From: a virus
IMG/VR virus record: IMGVR_UViG_3300044641_002097
Location: 1 to 40,094 of that record
Strand: one strand, 5' to 3'
Length of the DNA: 40,094 nucleotides
Shown here piece by piece: positions 3,030-37,047 of this stretch. The notes under the pieces were generated by a model. That model had not been told where the DNA came from and ran no database searches. It saw nothing but the letters and a program-made list of their open reading frames with translations. The position numbers and the translations under genes are program-made. The first letter of the stretch is position 1, and each line of letters begins with the position of its first letter.

Positions 3030-3611
3030 TTATATCTTCACCAACACCACATTCTCTCCGTTTTCATACACACACTGAAACCCATTTGCAAGCGCAAATA
3101 TTTCATCCTTTCGGTTGTCGTGTTCCACTACCCAAACTTTTACCTTTGGCATTAACGGGAATACCTTTAAGAATAACTCCGCACTCTGTCCTTCAATGTC
3201 AAGGGATACCATATCAAAATCAGTCCCGTAATGGGATAGGATGGTGTTGATATGCACGGGCATAACCGTAATAGCTTGGAAAGGTGTTTGCGCTTTCCAT
3301 TTCTCCACGTGTGAGATGTCAGTAGTTGCGGTGGCTTGGTCGTTATCGTAGAATGTAGTCATTCCGAAAACAGGCTCATGCGTTATACAGGCAAGGCATA
3401 GATGCACATTCTTTCCCTCTAAGTTACGCTGACAGGCAGTGAACATCTTCGGGGATGCTTCCACGTACACACCTTCCCATCCACGTTCTAACAGTGCGTA
3501 GGTGTTGCTGAATGTAATGCCGTCAAATGCTCCTAAGTCTAGGAACTTTCCCGTAACGCCTTCTAGGTGTTGCAGGATGTAGTGCTGTTCATCGTTTTGT
3601 GAGTATTTCAT
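3030..3611 (-). CDS. FkbM-family methyltransferase
   Basis: This 193-residue SAM-dependent O-methyltransferase of the FkbM type is expected to methylate a sugar or related small molecule. The SAM-binding glycine loop is LDLGAFDG (about residues 24-31) followed by an acidic end of strand 2 (VYVEASP). VSLDIEGQ further on matches the DIEG/DVEG signature of the family. It is translationally coupled to the glycosyltransferase upstream (TAATG overlap at 3611-3613), and both sit between scaffold and capsid genes with a promoter before and a terminator after. A role in methylating a sugar added by its partner is inferred. Confidence 0.8.
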   Translation of the reverse strand: MKYSQNDEQHYILQHLEGVTGKFLDLGAFDGITFSNTYALLERGWEGVYVEASPKMFTACQRNLEGKNVHLCLACITHEPVFGMTTFYDNDQATATTDISHVEKWKAQTPFQAITVMPVHINTILSHYGTDFDMVSLDIEGQSAELFLKVFPLMPKVKVWVVEHDNRKDEIFALANGFQCVYENGENVVLVKI

Positions 3612-4204
3612 TATTCAGGATTAGCTTCTGATACTTTTGAATCATATACGTAGGTCATCATTTCGTGATTGATATGATGTGCGTGCTTTGCTTTCTTATT
3701 TGCTTGTTCAGCCCATGCCCAATCTTCACCGTAGTTGCTGTCGGGGAATGTGCAATGCTGTACTACTTCACGCCTCCAAAAGCACACGTGCCAAGGGGGT
3801 CGGATTGCAATACCGTCCTTTACTAATTCGTCATTTGTCGGGTGTCCGTGCTGAAATTGCAGTGCGTATTCTTCACCGTTTAGAATGACTTTTTGATTGA
3901 AAGTGAAAACATCGGGGAGTGCATTAAGGTAACTTACGTATGATTGAACAAACCGTAAAATATACTGCTCATCAGGTTTATCATCATCATCTAAAAAGGT
4001 AATGTATTCCCCTTGAGCGATATTCATCAACGCTTGTCTTTTTGCTCCAATGCTTCGCCTTTTATTATCACAAAGTGAAAGGATTTCAATAGATAATACA
4101 TCCGAATGATTATGATGATTCTGCCTCTCCAATTCACGGATTAGCGGTATCAGATGCGATTCAAGTCGGGATGGGATGGATGGGATAAGGATGGATAGGA
4201 TCAT
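3611..4204 (-). CDS. Family 2 (GT-A) glycosyltransferase
   Basis: The 197-residue protein starts ILSILIPSIPSR, the typical first strand of GT2 enzymes. It carries the metal/nucleotide-binding LDDDD at residues 71-75 and a GEDW acceptor-base motif at 159-162. A longer frame reaches 4276, but that extension would pass through a terminator and the promoter, so the ATG at 4204 is preferred. It shares a TAATG junction with the FkbM methyltransferase. It is short for a GT2 enzyme but has the complete core. Substrates are unknown; a cell-surface or virion glycan is likely. Confidence 0.8.
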   Translation of the reverse strand: MILSILIPSIPSRLESHLIPLIRELERQNHHNHSDVLSIEILSLCDNKRRSIGAKRQALMNIAQGEYITFLDDDDKPDEQYILRFVQSYVSYLNALPDVFTFNQKVILNGEEYALQFQHGHPTNDELVKDGIAIRPPWHVCFWRREVVQHCTFPDSNYGEDWAWAEQANKKAKHAHHINHEMMTYVYDSKVSEANPE

Positions 4205-4222
4205 GATTTTGTATGTGAAGTG

Positions 4223-4254
4223 CAAACATAATAAAACCCCCTCACATAAGCAAG
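4223..4254 (-). promoter_or_regulatory. Promoter of the glycosyltransferase/FkbM cassette
   Basis: On the minus strand TATGTTTG (4230-4223) fits TAnnTTTG and CTTG (4254-4251) stands 20 nt upstream. The -33 part lies inside the stem of the scaffold terminator, so one 30-bp segment ends one transcript and starts the next. The leader before the ATG at 4204 would be only about 10-15 nt. Confidence 0.65.
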
Positions 4255-4258
4255 GGGG
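4231..4258 (-). terminator. Terminator after the scaffold gene
   Basis: CCCCCT (4237-4242) pairs with AGGGGG (4253-4258), 6 bp with a 10-nt loop. It is followed on the minus strand by TTTTATTATG. It lies 32 bp after the scaffold stop codon and overlaps the promoter of the next gene pair. Confidence 0.75.
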
Positions 4259-4290
4259 CTTCTCACATACTAACACTTCAATCCCTGTCT

Positions 4291-5160
4291 TTATTGTGAA
4301 CCTGCACGTAAATCATTCAGGGCTGATGATACCTGTAATTTAGCGGCGGGTGTCGTGATCTTTGTCGGTACGGGTGTCGGGGTAGGTGTTGGGCTTGGTG
4401 ATGGTGGTTGCTGACCTTTTACCTTAATCAGTTTATTCTCTGCCACCACTGAATCCGCAAAACTGTCAAACTCTACGGGCTTGTTGTCAATGGTGAAAGG
4501 TAGTGCGTCATCTGTGGAGGATACAAGGGATACTTTGCCATCAACAAATTTCATTTTCCCGCCCTTTTCAGCAAGTTTGCGCTCAAATAGTGTCCGTGCT
4601 GATGTTGCCTGTACGTCAACGGGAATGGTATCCATTGCGTAATCGTATTGCGTGAATTTGCTATTCACAAGGTGGTCACCAAACTTGCCCCGCCACTCAT
4701 TGTCAATCCGTGCTGTTTCCGCTTTTAGCTGATCTTTAGCGGAGGCAATTTCTGCATTGAGTTTGTTGATCTGCTCAACAAGGGTTTTCTTTTCACCGCC
4801 CACAGCAGTAGCCGCATCTTCCTTCGCTTTAGCAAGTGCTTTCGTGAATAGCTTAATGCGCTCAAAAGAGTTGGTTTCTGTTTTCAGCACCCCCTTTACG
4901 TCATCGGGCAGAGCGTATTCATCGGTCATGTCATTGATGATGGAATCCACAGAGCCGAGATGAACCCCTGCAAAGTGCTTTTTCAGTTCACCGTTGATCT
5001 TGGCTTCATTTACTGTGAGTAGCGAATTAAGTACAGCGGGTTTAAAATCATCGGGCAGTGTAATCTGTGACAATGCGGGGTTAGCCAACAAGTCCTTGAG
5101 TGGTGTCGTGTCGTATCCCGTGCGCTCGGCAAGGGCGTGAATCAATTCTCCTGCGTTCAT
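4291..5160 (-). CDS. Capsid scaffolding protein
   Basis: This 289-residue protein has a highly charged helical body with a coiled coil at roughly 100-155 (KALAKAKEDAA, EQINKLNAEIASAKDQLKAE). A Pro/Ser/Thr linker near 252-267 (PSPSPTPTPTPVPT) precedes a short C-terminal tail that could bind capsid protein. Size, composition and placement between MuF-like and capsid genes match scaffolding proteins of siphophages. No protease gene is evident nearby. It is followed by a terminator, so its expression is separated from the capsid gene. Confidence 0.75.
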   Translation of the reverse strand: MNAGELIHALAERTGYDTTPLKDLLANPALSQITLPDDFKPAVLNSLLTVNEAKINGELKKHFAGVHLGSVDSIINDMTDEYALPDDVKGVLKTETNSFERIKLFTKALAKAKEDAATAVGGEKKTLVEQINKLNAEIASAKDQLKAETARIDNEWRGKFGDHLVNSKFTQYDYAMDTIPVDVQATSARTLFERKLAEKGGKMKFVDGKVSLVSSTDDALPFTIDNKPVEFDSFADSVVAENKLIKVKGQQPPSPSPTPTPTPVPTKITTPAAKLQVSSALNDLRAGSQ

Positions 5161-5785: not shown

Positions 5786-5812
5786 CAAATATATGAATTA
5801 TTCTACTCCAAA
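5786..5812 (-). promoter_or_regulatory. Possible promoter before the small membrane protein gene
   Basis: TATATTTG (5793-5786) on the minus strand lies 25 bp before the ATG at 5760, in the 37-bp gap after the MuF-like gene. A TTTG (5812-5809) upstream is only 15 nt away, shorter than usual, so the site is weaker than the others. Confidence 0.45.
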
Positions 5813-6721
5813 CTGTTGCCGTAATTCTTTCGGGACTACGGCTGTGGCTACCCCGTAGATCTGATGGTTGCACTGAAAGCCCCCTGCATTCACGTAGAAA
5901 TTAGCCACGTTCGTACCCTTCATCATTCCGCTTGGTAGTCCTGTCTTTTTATTTATGTGTATCTGTTCCCCGCATATGCGCCCCTCTAATAGTTCAGGAA
6001 TCTGTGAAGTGTGAAAGTACTTCATGCACCCCGATTTAGCCTCAATCATCTTCACACAAAATTCACGGGAAGTCTCCTTTAACGACCCCGAATAACGCCA
6101 AAACACGAAGCCGAGATCATCGCTGATGACCTTGTTGTAGTTTCGGCTGTATTGGTTCAGGGCATCTGTGGTTATCTGTTTAGCGTACTTTACTAACCTC
6201 CCTTCGGTTTCTCCCTCATTCATTAGGTACGCTCTGATTTCTTCCGTGAACTGCGATACCTTGCCTCCTGTGGTGATGTTCTTGGTTAGAATATCCCTGA
6301 CAGGGTTAATGACGTTCACCTCAATTCCTGCCCGTCCTAAACTTTCGATCGTGATGTCTATGCTTTGCTTTTGCAGTTCAGCAAGTACAGCGGGGACGGT
6401 GAAATCATTTACCGTTGTGGCAAAGTAGGCGTTTTGTAGTTTGGTAATATCATCGTAGGTGCTGACTAGTTTCTTTAATTCCCGTTCGTACTTGCCATCT
6501 ATCATCACTTCTAGTAGCCGTTGTTTGATCTTGGCTATTAGTCGGATATTGGATGCGGATACTTTAATCGTGCCGTCCTTGTATTTCTCCAGTTGGGAAG
6601 TTAATTCCAACACCTCCGCATAGGCTTGTTTCTGAACCGAAGGCATAGAGGCAGTAAACCCATTGATTCGTTTCTCAATGAGTGATTCTAATTCCTCTAT
6701 GATCTTATCGCCTTGTGGCAT
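5798..6721 (-). CDS. MuF-like head morphogenesis / minor capsid protein
   Basis: This 307-residue protein directly follows the portal gene with a TAATG overlap, the normal place for SPP1 gp7/Mu gpF-type proteins that ride with the portal into the procapsid. The N-terminal two thirds are helical (LESLIEKRINGF, LELTSQLEKY). The C-terminal third has conserved-looking Cys/His positions: EFCVKMI, GCMKYFHT, GRICGEQ and GGFQCNHQ, which resembles the GC/H-containing MuF core. The enzymatic part of larger MuF fusions is absent. Its role would be in head assembly or DNA exit. Confidence 0.7.
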   Translation of the reverse strand: MPQGDKIIEELESLIEKRINGFTASMPSVQKQAYAEVLELTSQLEKYKDGTIKVSASNIRLIAKIKQRLLEVMIDGKYERELKKLVSTYDDITKLQNAYFATTVNDFTVPAVLAELQKQSIDITIESLGRAGIEVNVINPVRDILTKNITTGGKVSQFTEEIRAYLMNEGETEGRLVKYAKQITTDALNQYSRNYNKVISDDLGFVFWRYSGSLKETSREFCVKMIEAKSGCMKYFHTSQIPELLEGRICGEQIHINKKTGLPSGMMKGTNVANFYVNAGGFQCNHQIYGVATAVVPKELRQQFGVE

Positions 6722-8473: not shown

Positions 8474-9313
8474 TTAAATTACGGCTCGTTCGGGCATTAC
8501 GCTCTTCTTGTGGTTGACCGTGAAGGTCTGTAACCCTGTGATGTACTGAACATTCTTACACAGTTCATTATAAACATTCTGCATGGGTCGGGGTATAAAC
8601 TTCCCACCCATTGAGAACAGGTAATACTCCTGCTTTATCTGCATGGCGTTTTTATATCCTTTCTCCGCCCATTGCCAATACGAAGGCTTGTATGGTGCTT
8701 GGTGCGGTCGTATTCCACAGTGAATCATTCCCATCATCAGGAACGGCTCATCGGGTTTGTCCCCCGCAAATATCTTGGTTTGCAGGTCACCTTCCTTATA
8801 GAATCGTAGTGCGTTCTCAAATACGGATTGTGCCTGTACGTTCTTTTCAAAGTAGATAAATTCACTGGATAGATCATACCAATACGGCACATCTAACACG
8901 CCTGATTCAACCCATTCAGATACGCCTTTACTTGGGTCTTGTTCACCTCTGTTGGCAATCGTAAACGGTATGCCTTTCAACGCTCTGAACAGTTCTTCTG
9001 CTTTCTTCATCGGGGTGAAGATGGTATCAGCATCCACATAGATGGTATGCTCATACGGACTGTACTTGTAGAGGTGATACTTTAATGTGAGCGGAGTACA
9101 TTTAGCCCCGTTGTGGTAGTCGCACAGTTCAGGAGTTACGATCTTATCAAACACGGTGCGCTTATAATCGTCAAGGTGCGATAATCCAACTTCATCAGCT
9201 ATTATCGTGATGGGAATAGTCGGACTGATTGCCCGTAATGACACGGCAAGGTTGTAGGCATAACGCCCATACATGGCGTGTTTGGTGGCTATGGTGATAA
9301 CTCCGATGCTCAT
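8474..9313 (-). CDS. GT-A fold glycosyltransferase (GT8-like)
   Basis: This 279-residue protein starts IGVITIATKHAMYGRYAYNL and has YVDADTIF with a DAD metal-binding motif at 94-96. Both are typical of nucleotide-sugar transferases that act one residue at a time. A later GDKPDEPFLMMGM segment fits the acceptor side. It stands alone between the last tail-tip gene and portal, with a 7-bp gap to the portal ATG. It shares the late transcript with virion genes, which suggests glycosylation during or after assembly. The sugar and acceptor are unknown. Confidence 0.7.
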   Translation of the reverse strand: MSIGVITIATKHAMYGRYAYNLAVSLRAISPTIPITIIADEVGLSHLDDYKRTVFDKIVTPELCDYHNGAKCTPLTLKYHLYKYSPYEHTIYVDADTIFTPMKKAEELFRALKGIPFTIANRGEQDPSKGVSEWVESGVLDVPYWYDLSSEFIYFEKNVQAQSVFENALRFYKEGDLQTKIFAGDKPDEPFLMMGMIHCGIRPHQAPYKPSYWQWAEKGYKNAMQIKQEYYLFSMGGKFIPRPMQNVYNELCKNVQYITGLQTFTVNHKKSVMPERAVI

Positions 9314-18534: not shown

Positions 18535-19830
18535 TTAAATATTAAACCGTACAAAATCACCGTAAAAAGTTGCAAAAAGATAACGTAGGCAGTCGGCTAA
18601 GTCAGCCTCACGGGTTTTATCCTTCCTGTCCTTAAGTATCACCATCTTTTCTTCCTTGTACTCAATCTGTACGTTTTTCAGGTCGTAAATCATGTGAGGA
18701 CATTCATCGGACACGGCAAAGGGCATATTTTGCAGGATGGAATTACACAGGATGTAGGAATCAGCATGGGAACTATTCACCGTCAACTGCCTCATCTGTG
18801 CGGGTGCTAAGTCTAAGGTATTCTCAATCACGGTGTAGTAGTTGATATTCCCCTTTGTCAATGCTGACCTATTTGCGCCTGTTGCATCACCTGTAACTAG
18901 GAATAAGGCATGAGGCATATCCGCCTTTATTTGAGCGGTCAGGGTGTAAATATCCGATCCCATTATCCGCCACTCCTTGAATACCTTTAACCCTTCTGCA
19001 TCTTCCTGCGCTCCAATACAGGTTATTGGGTCACAGTTAAAGTCAAAGGACAGCATCACCTCCAACATCGGATTGTACGTAACGGGTTTTACGTGCTTTT
19101 CTTCCTTAAACGCATAGAAAAACGGTGCTTTCACCTCAAACGCATCCCAGTCCCCTAACACATAACGCCTGTAAGTAAGCGGGTCTAATCGGGACAGGTT
19201 CTTCATGTAGTCAGGGTCAGAACTCAACTCCTGATTATCTACGATGGTAGCGGGTAGGTAGTACCAATCATCAGGCATTGTGCCTTTGCGGTATGCTTCG
19301 AAGATTCGGGTCTTCACCCAGTTCTGCGTTGGGTTTACCGTTGCTAGGATAATCGGTTTCGCCATCGGGTCTATCCTCCACCGTCCTGCACGGATCAGGC
19401 ACACATCTAATAACCCCTCCTGTAATTCCTCAATTTGCTCTAACAGAAACCCGTTCACCTCTAATCCCTTAAACCTATCGAAGTCCTTATCATTCTGATA
19501 ATCCTCTGCCATGAAGATAATCCGTGAACCGTTGGTGAAGGTAGCAGTCAGGTCGTTTTGGTTGAAGTTCTGCAAAAAGTTCATCGGGCATAACTTCTTG
19601 AACGTTTCCAATGCTGTCTTTTTCATGGTCGGCACTGAATCCCTGATGACGCACCATTTACTATTCGGGTACACCTTGCATAAAAAGATCAGGTAGGCAA
19701 TGGCAACAAACGACTTGCCTCCACCCATCGCACCGCCATAAGTAAGCACCGTGTACTTCCCCGAATTACAGGCTTCTAAAAACTCATCCTGTTTTGGATA
19801 GGGTTTAAAAAGTAATTTCTTTGCCTCCAA
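18535..19830 (-). CDS. terL: Terminase large subunit
   Basis: The 431-residue packaging motor/nuclease has a Walker A GGAMGGGKS (32-40), Walker B with catalytic acids GFLLEQIEE (127-135), and coupling motif TVNPTQNW. Its RNase H-like nuclease domain has SFDFNCDP (about 246-253), GDATG and a C-terminal DLADCLRYL. Length and motifs are complete. No ATG lies upstream of the Walker motif. The frame starts at TTG (19830), 26 bases inside the small-subunit gene, and this start is accepted for lack of an alternative. It works with the portal, which is encoded 10 kb away. Confidence 0.92.
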   Translation of the reverse strand: MEAKKLLFKPYPKQDEFLEACNSGKYTVLTYGGAMGGGKSFVAIAYLIFLCKVYPNSKWCVIRDSVPTMKKTALETFKKLCPMNFLQNFNQNDLTATFTNGSRIIFMAEDYQNDKDFDRFKGLEVNGFLLEQIEELQEGLLDVCLIRAGRWRIDPMAKPIILATVNPTQNWVKTRIFEAYRKGTMPDDWYYLPATIVDNQELSSDPDYMKNLSRLDPLTYRRYVLGDWDAFEVKAPFFYAFKEEKHVKPVTYNPMLEVMLSFDFNCDPITCIGAQEDAEGLKVFKEWRIMGSDIYTLTAQIKADMPHALFLVTGDATGANRSALTKGNINYYTVIENTLDLAPAQMRQLTVNSSHADSYILCNSILQNMPFAVSDECPHMIYDLKNVQIEYKEEKMVILKDRKDKTREADLADCLRYLFATFYGDFVRFNI

Positions 19831-20089
19831 TGCTGAACGTCTGAACCTCTTTGGTTTCCACAGCCGCCTGTATTTCAGTTCGGGCTAACTTCGGTTTAAA
19901 ATACTCCAATACCATCAGGTAATTACGGGCAAATGTTTCATCATCCATTTGCGCTAAAACCGCATTAAACCGCTCTGTGTGAACGCTAGAAATGGCAGTA
20001 CCTAACGCCTCCCATTGCACGGTGCGTTCGTTCTTGCTTCCCTTTGGGCGTCCGTTGGGGTTTCCTGTTTGTCCTTTCTTCTGTGCCAT
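19805..20089 (-). CDS. terS: Probable terminase small subunit
   Basis: The 94-residue protein begins with a basic GNPNGRPKGSKNERT stretch, the signature of DUF5681-type terminase small subunits and other phage DNA-binding proteins. A helical rest follows (FNAVLAQMDDETFARNYL). It overlaps terL by 26 bp. It is short for TerS, and the HTH is not obvious; binding pac/cos DNA is inferred from position and the GRPKGSKN motif. Confidence 0.65.
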   Translation of the reverse strand: MAQKKGQTGNPNGRPKGSKNERTVQWEALGTAISSVHTERFNAVLAQMDDETFARNYLMVLEYFKPKLARTEIQAAVETKEVQTFSIGGKEITF

Positions 20090-20113
20090 TGTAATTAAAT
20101 GATAACTACATAT

Positions 20114-20785
20114 TTAGCTTTTAATCCAATATATCGGTGTACTGTTCGGCACTGCTTTAATTTCAGGCTTCAATCCTCTTTCTTCCCAAAACTCCATGAC
20201 TGCTGTACGAACTCCTGCCAATGCCCAGTCATCAATGATGATATACCCGCCTTTGCTGACCTTATCGTACAGTTGACGCAAGGCAAACATAGTCGGATCG
20301 TAAACGTCCATATCCAACCGTAGAATACTGATGCTGTCGGGTGCTTCGTATGGTATGGTATTCTGTACCCATCCCTTCACTAACTTCCAATTTGTATTAG
20401 GGTTGAACCACTTCACAAGGTTATGCGTTACCGATTCCTTACTATGCACGGTAATCCCCGATGATTTCAGCAGTTCCGATTCAGGCACATTTACATCATG
20501 GGTTATCTTTCCAATCCCCGCCTGTTCTTCATCTTTCCTACCCGCCAACTGGATGCCCTCAAATGAATCATATCCCCAAAACCTGCGATTAGTGTGATTC
20601 TCTGCTTTCAGGCATCCGTGAATCATCATTGCGAAGTTTGCCCCCGCTGCGATGCCACATTCCACAATATCCCCCTCAATGCCTAACGCACCTACACTGA
20701 ATCCAAGATCAAAGCTATTCTGCAAGGTTTCCCTAGTCGAATACGCTACACCTGCGATATGTGGATATAGTTCGTGTGGTTTCAT
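20114..20785 (-). CDS. TylF/MycF-family O-methyltransferase
   Basis: The 223-residue protein shows GDIVECGIAAGAN (38-50), the SAM-binding loop of macrocin-type sugar O-methyltransferases. LRLDMDVYDPTMFALRQLYD and GGYIIIDDW follow, with the metal-binding acidic residues. The ATG at 20785 is chosen over an upstream frame start because it gives a TAATG junction with the glycosyltransferase before it. It is the last gene of a four-gene glycan cluster and would methylate the sugar added by one of the three transferases. After it comes a 24-bp gap to terS. Confidence 0.82.
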   Translation of the reverse strand: MKPHELYPHIAGVAYSTRETLQNSFDLGFSVGALGIEGDIVECGIAAGANFAMMIHGCLKAENHTNRRFWGYDSFEGIQLAGRKDEEQAGIGKITHDVNVPESELLKSSGITVHSKESVTHNLVKWFNPNTNWKLVKGWVQNTIPYEAPDSISILRLDMDVYDPTMFALRQLYDKVSKGGYIIIDDWALAGVRTAVMEFWEERGLKPEIKAVPNSTPIYWIKS

Positions 20786-21429
20786 TACATTCCCTGCATT
20801 GCTACGATTCCATCTAACACTTCTGGAGCAAAGGTAACCCATCCCGACTGATTTTGCAAGTCCAAGTTATGTTTTGCCACTAATAGCGATAATACGGACT
20901 GATCGTGCCGTGAACCCCTGCAACGGTCATCATGGCTTTCTGTGTGTAGGCTATTATCCCACTTACCTTTAAACAGGTGTATGTGGTCAGCCCATTCATT
21001 AAACAGCCACCCCGTACTGATCTTGTCAAATCCTACCATCCCACCTACTGCATGAGGTTGCGTCATAGCCTCATCACGGTTGTAACCGAACGCCTCTAAC
21101 TGCCTGTCGTTGCACCACCACCCGTTGAACTGTCCGTGATTGTGCAGGATAAAGTACCCGTGCTTTTCGATGTGGTCAAAAATGGGTGTTGGGTCTTTCA
21201 TAAGCCATGCCGATGAATCCAACCACAGCACACGGTCGTAGGTCTTAAACGCATACTCCATGCAATGTAGTTTAAATGCGTAGGGCAGTTCTGAATGGGT
21301 CGGGCATCCGATAGGATAATCTGTGAAGCCCATGCAGTCAATGCCGAACTTTTCACAGGATGCTTTCAGTCGTGCCACCCCTTGAGGATACCATGCCGAG
21401 TTACCGAATGTTACGATGCAGTTGCTCAT
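20785..21429 (-). CDS. GT-A type glycosyltransferase
   Basis: The 214-residue protein opens with NCIVTFGNSAWYPQGVARLK and has LWLDSSAWL (68-76) in place of the usual DxD, a form seen in enzymes related to GT8 and to DUF1647-like proteins. SRHDQSVLSLLV near residue 175 resembles the acceptor-binding segment of that group. It is coupled by ATGA to the upstream transferase and by TAATG to the methyltransferase. Whether DSS binds metal is uncertain, so activity is inferred. Confidence 0.68.
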   Translation of the reverse strand: MSNCIVTFGNSAWYPQGVARLKASCEKFGIDCMGFTDYPIGCPTHSELPYAFKLHCMEYAFKTYDRVLWLDSSAWLMKDPTPIFDHIEKHGYFILHNHGQFNGWWCNDRQLEAFGYNRDEAMTQPHAVGGMVGFDKISTGWLFNEWADHIHLFKGKWDNSLHTESHDDRCRGSRHDQSVLSLLVAKHNLDLQNQSGWVTFAPEVLDGIVAMQGM

Positions 21430-21992
21430 TTCCTTGATCTATAACGGTAATAATACATCGGCTTATCTTCGATGAAGTATTCCTCATCAGGCGTAATTAA
21501 CCCCGCCTTACTAAGCCGTAGTGAATAGTCGTAATCTTCCCCATGTTTCAGGTCATTGTATCCGATCTGTCGGGCAATATCTGTTTTTATGGGGTTCAGG
21601 TGGTTAATGGGACGGTAATAGAACACACGCCCTTTAATGCGCTTATCGTGCCACGTTTTATGACGGCTTGAATGTTCAAACGGGTGCGGGTTGATGCCGT
21701 TGGTGGTGATGATACCCTTGAATCCGATTGCTGTTGCGCCCTTTTCGATGCCCTTGAACACCTCCACGAAGTACAGCGGGTTCACCTCATCATCCGCATC
21801 TATAAAGCAGATATAGGGCGTATCTACGTTATCTAGTAGCTGTTGCCGATACTGCCCAATGGATCGTGTGCCGTCATTGGGTAGCGACATAAACTGCACG
21901 GGATAGCCTTGTGCGTATTTATTCAGCACCACAATCAGCCTGTTGTAAAACAGTGCGTCCTTGTTGCGATATGGGATACAGACGGTGAGCAT
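21426..21992 (-). CDS. Family 2 glycosyltransferase
   Basis: The 188-residue GT2 enzyme has TVCIPYRNKDALFYNRL as its first strand and loop, FIDADDEV with the DxDD metal motif at 65-68, and GEDYDYSLRL (151-160), the catalytic-base region. It is compact with a full core and no membrane segment. It lies in the middle of the four-gene cluster, with overlaps at both ends (TAATG at 21992, ATGA at 21429). Confidence 0.82.
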   Translation of the reverse strand: MLTVCIPYRNKDALFYNRLIVVLNKYAQGYPVQFMSLPNDGTRSIGQYRQQLLDNVDTPYICFIDADDEVNPLYFVEVFKGIEKGATAIGFKGIITTNGINPHPFEHSSRHKTWHDKRIKGRVFYYRPINHLNPIKTDIARQIGYNDLKHGEDYDYSLRLSKAGLITPDEEYFIEDKPMYYYRYRSRK

Positions 21993-22642
21993 TAGCCGAG
22001 TTTAAACCCAGTTCTTTTTCTCATTTCAAAAAACTTCTTCCCTATATCCCATGCTTTCTGACTGTTTTCACGTTCATAAGTTGCGTCCATAGGTGATTTT
22101 TTATTCACATAGTGCCGATGCTCAAATACCACATCTAGCTTAATAAGTTCCCCGTGAATCTTAGCGCACTCGGTCAGGTCATTATCCGCAAACATACTAA
22201 AGTAGCGGGGATGGTAGACGTATCCGAGTTTCTCATACATTAATCGGTTCATGATGGGCAGTGTCACAATCTCATCCTGTATAGTATCCCGCACCTGAAT
22301 GACAGCAGGACGGTCTAATGGCATTGCCTGTTTGATGATGGTATCCCAACCTTTCGGGCATCCGAAATCATCGGACATAACCACGTAAATATCGGCTACG
22401 ATTTGACTACACGCAACATTCACGGCATCGACAATGGAGCGGTTAGGGTTTTGAATAATCTCATCATCCCCTTCGCCAAAAAGTTGGAAATATAGTGCCT
22501 GTTTGGGGTCGGATGAATCTATACTGATGACATATTCAAAATCATTATCAGCATTTTTCAGCCATTCATGATATGCTACACGTGCTTTATCAGGTCTTCC
22601 ACGTGAGGGGTGGATCAGGGCGATGGTGGTGTTATCTTCCAT
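21992..22642 (-). CDS. Family 2-like glycosyltransferase
   Basis: The 216-residue protein starts IALIHPSRGRPDKARVAY, a first strand/loop found in phage GT2-like proteins. It has VVMSDDFGCPKGWD around the metal motif (SDD, 90-92) and FEHRHY near the C-terminus. It is the first gene of the glycan cluster and overlaps the VRR-NUC gene by 11 bp, so it may be expressed with the early genes. Sugar and acceptor are unknown. Confidence 0.75.
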   Translation of the reverse strand: MEDNTTIALIHPSRGRPDKARVAYHEWLKNADNDFEYVISIDSSDPKQALYFQLFGEGDDEIIQNPNRSIVDAVNVACSQIVADIYVVMSDDFGCPKGWDTIIKQAMPLDRPAVIQVRDTIQDEIVTLPIMNRLMYEKLGYVYHPRYFSMFADNDLTECAKIHGELIKLDVVFEHRHYVNKKSPMDATYERENSQKAWDIGKKFFEMRKRTGFKLG

Positions 22643-22967
22643 AGTTCAATTCAATTAGTTGTATCACTTCATCGAGCGTATAGCATACATGGTATGACCA
22701 TCCGCAGTTTATTAGCCTTACTTCCCATTCCTTTTGTGTATCGGTTTGGGTATTCTTTCCCACTTTCAGTTCAATCGCTGTGCCTGCATACTCCCCGTGT
22801 GGGTTAAAGATCAGGCAGTCAGGTACACCCGCTTTCATGCCTTTGCGCTTGAGTTTATTGCCTGACTTCGGATCACGTTTGCCCTCATTCGGCACATGAC
22901 ACCACGACAACTTTCTAAGGTCTAAGTAGGACGCAACCGCCTGCTGAAATTGATCTTCGAGGTTCAT
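22632..22967 (-). CDS. VRR-NUC domain nuclease
   Basis: The 111-residue protein consists of one PD-(D/E)XK domain of the VRR-NUC type: an N-terminal helix with E4 (NLEDQFQQAV), GVPD (47-50), IELKVGKN (E66 and K68), and QKEW (78-81). All core catalytic residues are present. Stand-alone VRR-NUC proteins in phages are thought to resolve branched DNA or cut during recombination or packaging. It overlaps both neighbours (ATGA upstream, 11 bp downstream). Confidence 0.85.
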   Translation of the reverse strand: MNLEDQFQQAVASYLDLRKLSWCHVPNEGKRDPKSGNKLKRKGMKAGVPDCLIFNPHGEYAGTAIELKVGKNTQTDTQKEWEVRLINCGWSYHVCYTLDEVIQLIELNYGR

Positions 22968-35676: not shown

Positions 35677-37047
35677 TTATTTCACGGTTACGCCCTGAAT
35701 GTATTTTTTCTGTCCGTTGGTATCGTACCCCTGAATCGAAGTAAGCGATGGAATAGAGCCTACCCATTTAGTAGCATCGGTGATGAGGAATGTAGCAGGA
35801 GGGTTGACAAACTCCCAACGCCCCGCACCGTTCACGTTCTCAAATTTTGTTCCCGATGTCAGGTAAGGTATTTCACTTACTACCATTTTAGCGTATGCAC
35901 TGGATTCAAACTTTATCAGGGTCTGATCGTACTGCGAATAAACACCACCTACCTGCGCATACCCGTCTTTTAATCGGACATAGTATGCGGCTATCTTCGC
36001 CTGATGTTCGTGATGGTTGCCGTAGCTGAAAAACTCTTTTACTACGTTGGATGAATTATCATCGAAGTAAATATCGTAATCACCACCCGCTTGTACTCCT
36101 TCAAAAATACAGTGTAGTACCTGTAATCCACTGACAGCAGTTGCTTTTATGGAGGCGAAATCACCTGCAGTGTTTCTGAATTTACAATCCCTTACAATGC
36201 TATGGTTAGACTGCGATGCGGAGTTACTGCCTCCACTGAAACGAGCATAATCTAAGTCGATGCTGATGTAATTCTCCCAGAAGTAGCATTGTTCAATAAT
36301 AGTTCCCATAGTCCAACCGCCTTTGTATGCGGTGTGAAAGTTGGAGAATCTGCACCCTTCGATCTTTGCCCCGTAATTCGCCTGTACTGCAATACATACA
36401 TTTGATCCGTTGCCAACAAATTCCACGTTACTGATGCGGAGTTGCATATCAATCCCTGCATTCGCCTCTGATAAAGATGCGTATGTACGGGTGAATAATG
36501 TATCGGATGTTACTGTAACCTTTGCGCTGTTTCCTTCAATCAGGAATATACGTGAATAGTTCTTTGCAAAACTAAACTTTGTGGAGGCTGTGAAATCATT
36601 ATACAGGTATATCGCACGGGTGGAGGTGGAGTTAAGTGCCGAATAAAATTCAGTAGTCGTTCCTGCCCATTTAACCCCGAAGTTGAAGATGGTTGTAATC
36701 CCACCACTCCCCGAACCCGCAGGACCTTGTGGACCTGTTTCGCCTTGTGGACCTTGTGGTCCTTGTGGTCCGACTGGTCCAGTCGCACCCGTATCGCCTT
36801 TATCACCCTTTTCGCCTTTTATAATGCTTACAGGCTTCCAACCTCCACTGTAATAGTATTGCTGACCGTTTACAATGAGGATGTCACGGTTAGCGATGAA
36901 TCCCTGAATAGTTCCGCTTGGCATTACCGAACGGGTGAAGATACGCCCCTGTGATAAGTCCTGTGCTTTTCCTTTAGTGAATATCCCTGCGATGAGGCAG
37001 AGCATGAGCATGATCGCTCCGATTAGTTTCAGTGTTTTGTTTGTCAT
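35677..37047 (-). CDS. Secreted collagen-like beta-helix protein
   Basis: The 456-residue protein has a hydrophobic signal peptide ([16 protein letters not shown], then KGKAQ, likely cut near residue 29), then about 45 residues. A collagen block of 11 G-X-Y triplets (78-110, with [12 protein letters not shown]) and a right-handed beta-helix of pectate-lyase-like repeats (about 120-400) follow. The domain order equals that of tail fibres, yet a Sec signal is atypical for a virion protein. It follows the fibre gene and precedes the lysis genes. It may be displayed on the infected cell, or its N-terminus may be a membrane anchor. Confidence 0.68.

Follow-up and report, generated by a model that had tools for sequence, protein, structure and literature searches.

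A compact gene cassette in a phage genome encodes three glycosyltransferases and a sugar O-methyltransferase, a combination that is well supported, by fold, family and conserved co-occurrence, as the makings of a methylated oligosaccharide. The cassette probably constitutes a virion-glycosylation module, in which an O-methylated glycan would be assembled in the cytosol on virion proteins. A broader interpretation is put forward only tentatively. One of the enzymes, GT3, may be the founder of a glycosyltransferase family that is restricted to viruses and central to a modular system of wide distribution. Environmental phages, probably infecting Bacteroidota, would use this system to assemble an O-methylated glycan on the particles they produce; the cassette would have moved between unrelated backbones and become split over two sites in this lineage.

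The cassette lies in IMGVR_UViG_3300044641_002097, a complete IMG/VR record of 40,094 bp that is covered in full by the stretch of DNA analysed here (the window). The window phage is of freshwater type, and almost every gene is carried on the minus strand. The two contig ends (1-65 and 40030-40094) repeat each other imperfectly over some 65 bp, which suggests a circular map or a terminally redundant genome. The mismatches between the two copies resemble poor end sequence, and the record is classed as linear. The closest annotated relatives of the terminase large subunit (TerL) and the portal protein are found in phages of Bacteroides, Flavobacterium, Polaribacter and others. Of 48 genes, 6 have a Shine-Dalgarno-like 4-mer in front of them where 5.7 would be expected by chance, and this chance level fits a Bacteroidota host. 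Judged by these relatives and by the absent Shine-Dalgarno signal, the host is probably a member of the Bacteroidota. The cassette and its context genes are the following:

22632-22967, minus strand: VRR-NUC nuclease gene, context outside the pathway (PF08774, 1.2e-7)
21992-22642, minus strand: GT1, family-2-type glycosyltransferase of GT-A fold, 216 aa (phrog_14945, 9.5e-22)
21426-21992, minus strand: GT2, family-2 glycosyltransferase, 188 aa (PF00535, 6e-5, barely above the cut-off; phrog_14775, 5e-23)
20785-21429, minus strand: GT3, GT-A-fold protein of an unnamed family, 214 aa (AlphaFold and Foldseek)
20114-20785, minus strand: TylF/MycF-type class I O-methyltransferase, 223 aa (PF05711, 8e-35)
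18535-19830, minus strand: TerL, context (phrog_979, 9e-28)

The four ORFs overlap successively by 1, 4 and 1 bp and sit between the VRR-NUC gene and the terminase genes, directly upstream of the latter. A sequence-only reading of this DNA had described such a block of overlapping genes, inserted between nuclease and terminase and holding three glycosyltransferases and a TylF-type O-methyltransferase for a methylated oligosaccharide. This description was borne out by profile searches for GT1, GT2 and the methyltransferase and by AlphaFold and Foldseek for GT1 and GT3. The same reading had also placed a separate promoter region upstream of the block, which did not hold. The VRR-NUC gene overlaps GT1 by 11 bp and an SSB-like gene by 4 bp; the cassette therefore lies within a long operon with no intergenic promoter region. 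A scan limited to promoters of the sigma-70 type returned one site, compared with 7.1 in shuffled sequence, and none upstream of GT1. On the GT1/VRR-NUC overlap and the scan, a dedicated cassette promoter is rejected.

GT1 alone has no Pfam match, and PF00535 is found in five of the 14 members of its family. Its AlphaFold model (pLDDT 90.9) has WrtF as the best Foldseek match (6e-11), with SpsA and polypeptide GalNAc-transferases (ppGalNAcT) also retrieved. GT2 has relatives in actinophages. By family profile or fold match, GT1, GT2 and a further enzyme, GT5 (described below), all belong to the GT2-type GT-A glycosyltransferases. The methyltransferase scores 120.8 bits against PF05711 (cut-off 23) and, when aligned with NovP and MycF, conserves D158-x-D160 and D185-D186, which we take to be residues with a catalytic role. 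Its ORF could open further upstream, at 20842; the starts of its homologues favour 20785. The main enzymes have no predicted membrane helices.

Some phages are known to encode DNA-modifying glycosyltransferases, and GT2 gives a sub-threshold match to TAGT (E 0.19). The enzymes might then glycosylate a modified base of the phage DNA, as TET-associated or T4 enzymes do. However, neither PF20691 (TAGT) nor PF00303 (the thymidylate synthase/hydroxymethylase family) is present above threshold in the genome, and TylF-type O-methyltransferases, the relatives of NovP and MycF, act on sugars. We regard DNA hypermodification as very unlikely.

For GT3, no fitting Pfam family was found in 23 members, the sole stray match being PF01055 at 0.002. 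The GT3 model (mean pLDDT 95.5) resembles GT6/ABO enzymes, UGGT and PBCV-1 A64R at about 1e-6. Foldseek returns 218 PDB chains at E < 0.001, of which the best 50 are glycosyltransferases throughout. On this structural evidence, GT3 is confidently predicted to be a GT-A-fold glycosyltransferase for which Pfam has no family. It lacks the textbook DxD metal motif, and its only invariant Asp is D71 of a W-x-D-S motif. BoGT6a, metal-independent according to its PDB title, is a GT-A enzyme that likewise departs from DxD. Two scans of 84,980 GTDB species genomes, which rely on short peptide patterns, confirmed no bacterial relative of GT3, and tblastn with two queries found none in 50,697 phage records. 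As found here, the family thus appears to be limited to viral contigs. In the sister phage L002, GT3 carries a nonsense codon (CAA to TAA, L002:10574-10576) 22 residues ahead of the normal end, a difference that could reflect either recent truncation or faulty assembly.

Relatives of GT3 were confirmed by profile scan on 108 IMG/VR stretches. The GT3 loci examined came from 88 viral contigs, unclustered and including some near-duplicates, and 49 of these extend for 3 kb or more to each side. Cassette genes were counted with profiles built from curated seeds. Another glycosyltransferase of the set lies within 5 kb of GT3 in 43 of the 49 flanked loci, and two or more do so in 38. A TylF or FkbM gene is near GT3 in 41/49, while a TerL of the window type accompanies it in 14/49. 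The same profiles were run as a control on 30 loci that had been picked by TerL alone and have no less than 4.9 kb upstream. The cassette was present in two, both previously known carriers, and the remaining 28 were without a single match. The near-empty control indicates that the profiles are specific and marks the cassette as an accessory module. In TerL loci without the cassette, other small genes fill the stretch from the DnaD-like region to TerL. Where present, it often adjoins the terminase or falls inside the head-gene block.

The pathway is larger than four genes and is distributed among two or three genomic sites. Its outlying genes in the window are:

8474-9313, minus strand: probable GT8-like glycosyltransferase beside the portal gene, a tentative assignment (glycogenin-1 profile, E 0.0016; conserved D-A-D motif)
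3611-4276, minus strand: GT5, family-2 glycosyltransferase of a satellite pair, likely start at residue 25 (PF00535, 2e-5; phrog_8858, 5e-32)
3030-3611, minus strand: FkbM-type methyltransferase of the satellite pair (PF05050, 5.5e-9)

The GT5/FkbM pair lies about 16 kb from the main cassette, downstream of the portal gene, both in the window and in a sister phage, where FkbM is 98% identical and GT5 is also present. In most relatives, FkbM homologues are found within the cassette, and relatives also hold a GT5 homologue inside the main cassette. For instance, homologues of both satellite genes join those of GT1, GT2 and GT3 in L008/L017 and L009/L016. Four other contigs (L026, L058, L060 and L063) carry GT1, GT3, FkbM, GT5 and GT2 between homologues of the window genes at 5798-6721 and 4291-5160, and two of the four have TylF in the set as well. 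Their portal-block genes are homologous to those of the window, whose GT5/FkbM pair occupies the same block. The presence of the whole set together in the portal block of these contigs indicates that a single cassette is present in the window in split form. The cassettes of L023 and L027 include weak relatives of the gene at 8474-9313.

Other genes are found in or beside the cassettes of relatives. DUF5672 proteins are encoded inside three of them (L017:10651-11418, L016:3847-4533 and L037:3455-4054), a placement that suggests a glycan-related family, perhaps of glycosyltransferases. In L023 (10711-13032), the cassette is followed by genes for a GT9-type protein, a methyltransferase and a GDP-mannose 4,6-dehydratase. 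The dehydratase and the GT9-type protein hint at a 6-deoxyhexose, and in some cassette-bearing phages the nucleotide sugar may be supplied by the phage itself.

In the window, the products of 1555-2700 and 4291-5160, both conserved in the four contigs with a complete portal-block set, resemble major capsid and scaffold-type proteins by position. No match to a family, PDB entry or phage record was found for either, and comparison with PDB profiles and phage records gave no assignment of 1555-2700 as the capsid protein.

All four main genes are under purifying selection, with dN/dS no higher than 0.07. Against sister phages, the values are 0.06 for GT1, 0.05 for GT2, 0.05 for GT3 (versus L003) and 0.07 for TylF (versus L013). 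Apart from the nonsense codon, GT3 differs from that of L002 by 17 synonymous and no amino-acid-changing differences. Across 18535-22642, the stretch from TylF to TerL is near-identical to L002 (dS 0.007-0.02), whereas GT1 has a dS of 0.37. This mosaic divergence points to recombination within the cassette.

In the proposed mechanism, soluble cytosolic glycosyltransferases made by the phage during infection would draw on the nucleotide sugars of the host. A short oligosaccharide would be built sugar by sugar, directly on a new virion protein of the head, tail tube or fibre. The TylF and FkbM methyltransferases would then O-methylate sugars of the chain, probably as a cap. We infer the enzymatic activity, order of action, sugars and acceptor protein from these data, as well as the benefit, which may lie in particle masking, stability or adsorption.

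Virion decoration was one of two functions first proposed, the other being a change of the host surface that blocks superinfection. Precedent and genome position make virion decoration the better of the two. Such enzymes in Corndogvirus modify capsid and tail-tube proteins, according to one source (PMC11600133, citing Freeman 2023). As in that system, tandem glycosyltransferases accompany an O-methyltransferase in the window, and the genes are placed among packaging and head genes, with the cassette next to the terminase genes and the portal block holding the GT8-like gene along with the GT5/FkbM pair. Against virion decoration, GT3 has no textbook DxD, the glycosyltransferases of the Corndogvirus Firecracker are not clearly homologous to GT1-GT3, and the main cassette of the window belongs to a replication-to-packaging operon and is not among the capsid genes. 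This operon context would also suit a small-molecule or other non-virion acceptor, such as a non-structural phage protein or a host factor (for example, a defence protein), that is glycosylated and methylated. The recurrent place of the cassette beside the terminase or in the head block, together with the precedent, favours virion proteins instead, and a non-virion acceptor is considered improbable.

Under the second proposed function, alteration of LPS, capsule or O-glycoprotein precursors of the host would prevent the binding of further phages or of released progeny. Enzymes that build surface glycans likewise include soluble family-2 glycosyltransferases and sugar methyltransferases, and O-glycans of Bacteroidota, the probable host group, are commonly methylated (PMC12871550). 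Slow remodelling of the surface would, however, be of little gain to a lytic phage, and in relatives the cassette is housed in the head-gene block. Temperate phages use Gtr seroconversion cassettes, which are alike in that the glycosyltransferases are phage-borne. The window differs in lacking a GtrA flippase (PF04138) and any membrane-bound glycosyltransferase among the set, and no tyrosine integrase was found in its genome. It is thus unlike temperate-phage seroconversion, and a Gtr-type system is disfavoured. Overall, host-surface modification is judged to be unlikely.

The gene at 35677-37047 encodes a secreted-looking fibre protein that has a pectate-lyase-like region and a short collagen-like stretch. 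The fold matches of GT3 include LH3 and collagen glucosyltransferases, and for this reason the protein was considered as the acceptor of the glycan. This role is not supported, as the stretch has only 11 triplets and few Thr and has no counterpart at the other loci compared. Counting Bacteroidota O-glycosylation motifs in structural proteins gave no candidate acceptor.

Glycosylation of phage virions is documented, as far as found, for mycobacterial phages, in which it shields the particles from antibodies. With the cassette conserved in about a hundred contigs of uncultivated phages, methylated sugar coats would seem to be common on phage particles in water and soil, habitats in which antibodies cannot explain them. 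While loci of glycosyltransferases and methyltransferases were already known from mycobacterial phages, the virus-restricted GT3 family and its breadth are new. GT3 represents an unnamed glycosyltransferase family that is ready for expression and assay.

Known viral systems resemble the cassette to different degrees. In PBCV-1, A064R contains two glycosyltransferase domains and a methyltransferase that act on the capsid glycan, and A064R and A061L exemplify viral glycosyltransferases and methyltransferases that build and O-methylate such a glycan (PMC9614988). The first domain of A064R is a Foldseek match of GT3 and has a GT3-like fold. In contrast to the window phage, PBCV-1 is a giant virus of eukaryotes with an N-glycan and a multidomain protein; the likeness shown is one of fold and function.

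Further parallels are found in phages of actinobacteria. Actinoplanes phage phiAsp2 has three coupled genes (pas33-pas35), of which pas33 belongs to the GT2 family and pas34 has an N-terminal part of the GT1 family fused to a Methyltransf_24 domain; its host is different and GT3 is absent. Mycobacterium phage LittleE encodes several glycosyltransferases (gp15-gp18 and gp21) right after the major capsid gene, with gp15 in the GT2/GT5 family. Instead of a TylF-type gene, it has a kinase-like gene and, as read by eye, a methyltransferase-like N-terminus in gp17. We know of no individual experimental tests of pas33, pas34 or LittleE gp15.

The nearest counterpart with experimental backing is Firecracker, a mid-sized Corndogvirus (cluster O). 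Its gp33-gp36 form an overlapping block of an O-methyltransferase and three glycosyltransferase-type genes, located between the portal and capsid protease genes and near the terminase, much as the window genes lie by the terminase and portal genes. Such pathways had been called rare in phages of this size, a view not supported in the light of gp33-gp36 (PMC11600133) and of the GT3 cassettes of many viral contigs. The O-methyltransferase gp33 is homologous to that of the window (TylF profile match, 1e-10). The profiles of GT1-GT3, GT5 and FkbM gave no match to gp34-36, and the glycosyltransferases of the two systems show no clear homology. None of the phage isolates searched has GT3, and the host of Corndogvirus is Mycobacterium rather than a probable member of the Bacteroidota. 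Compared with Corndogvirus, the window has an additional FkbM methyltransferase and a second locus.
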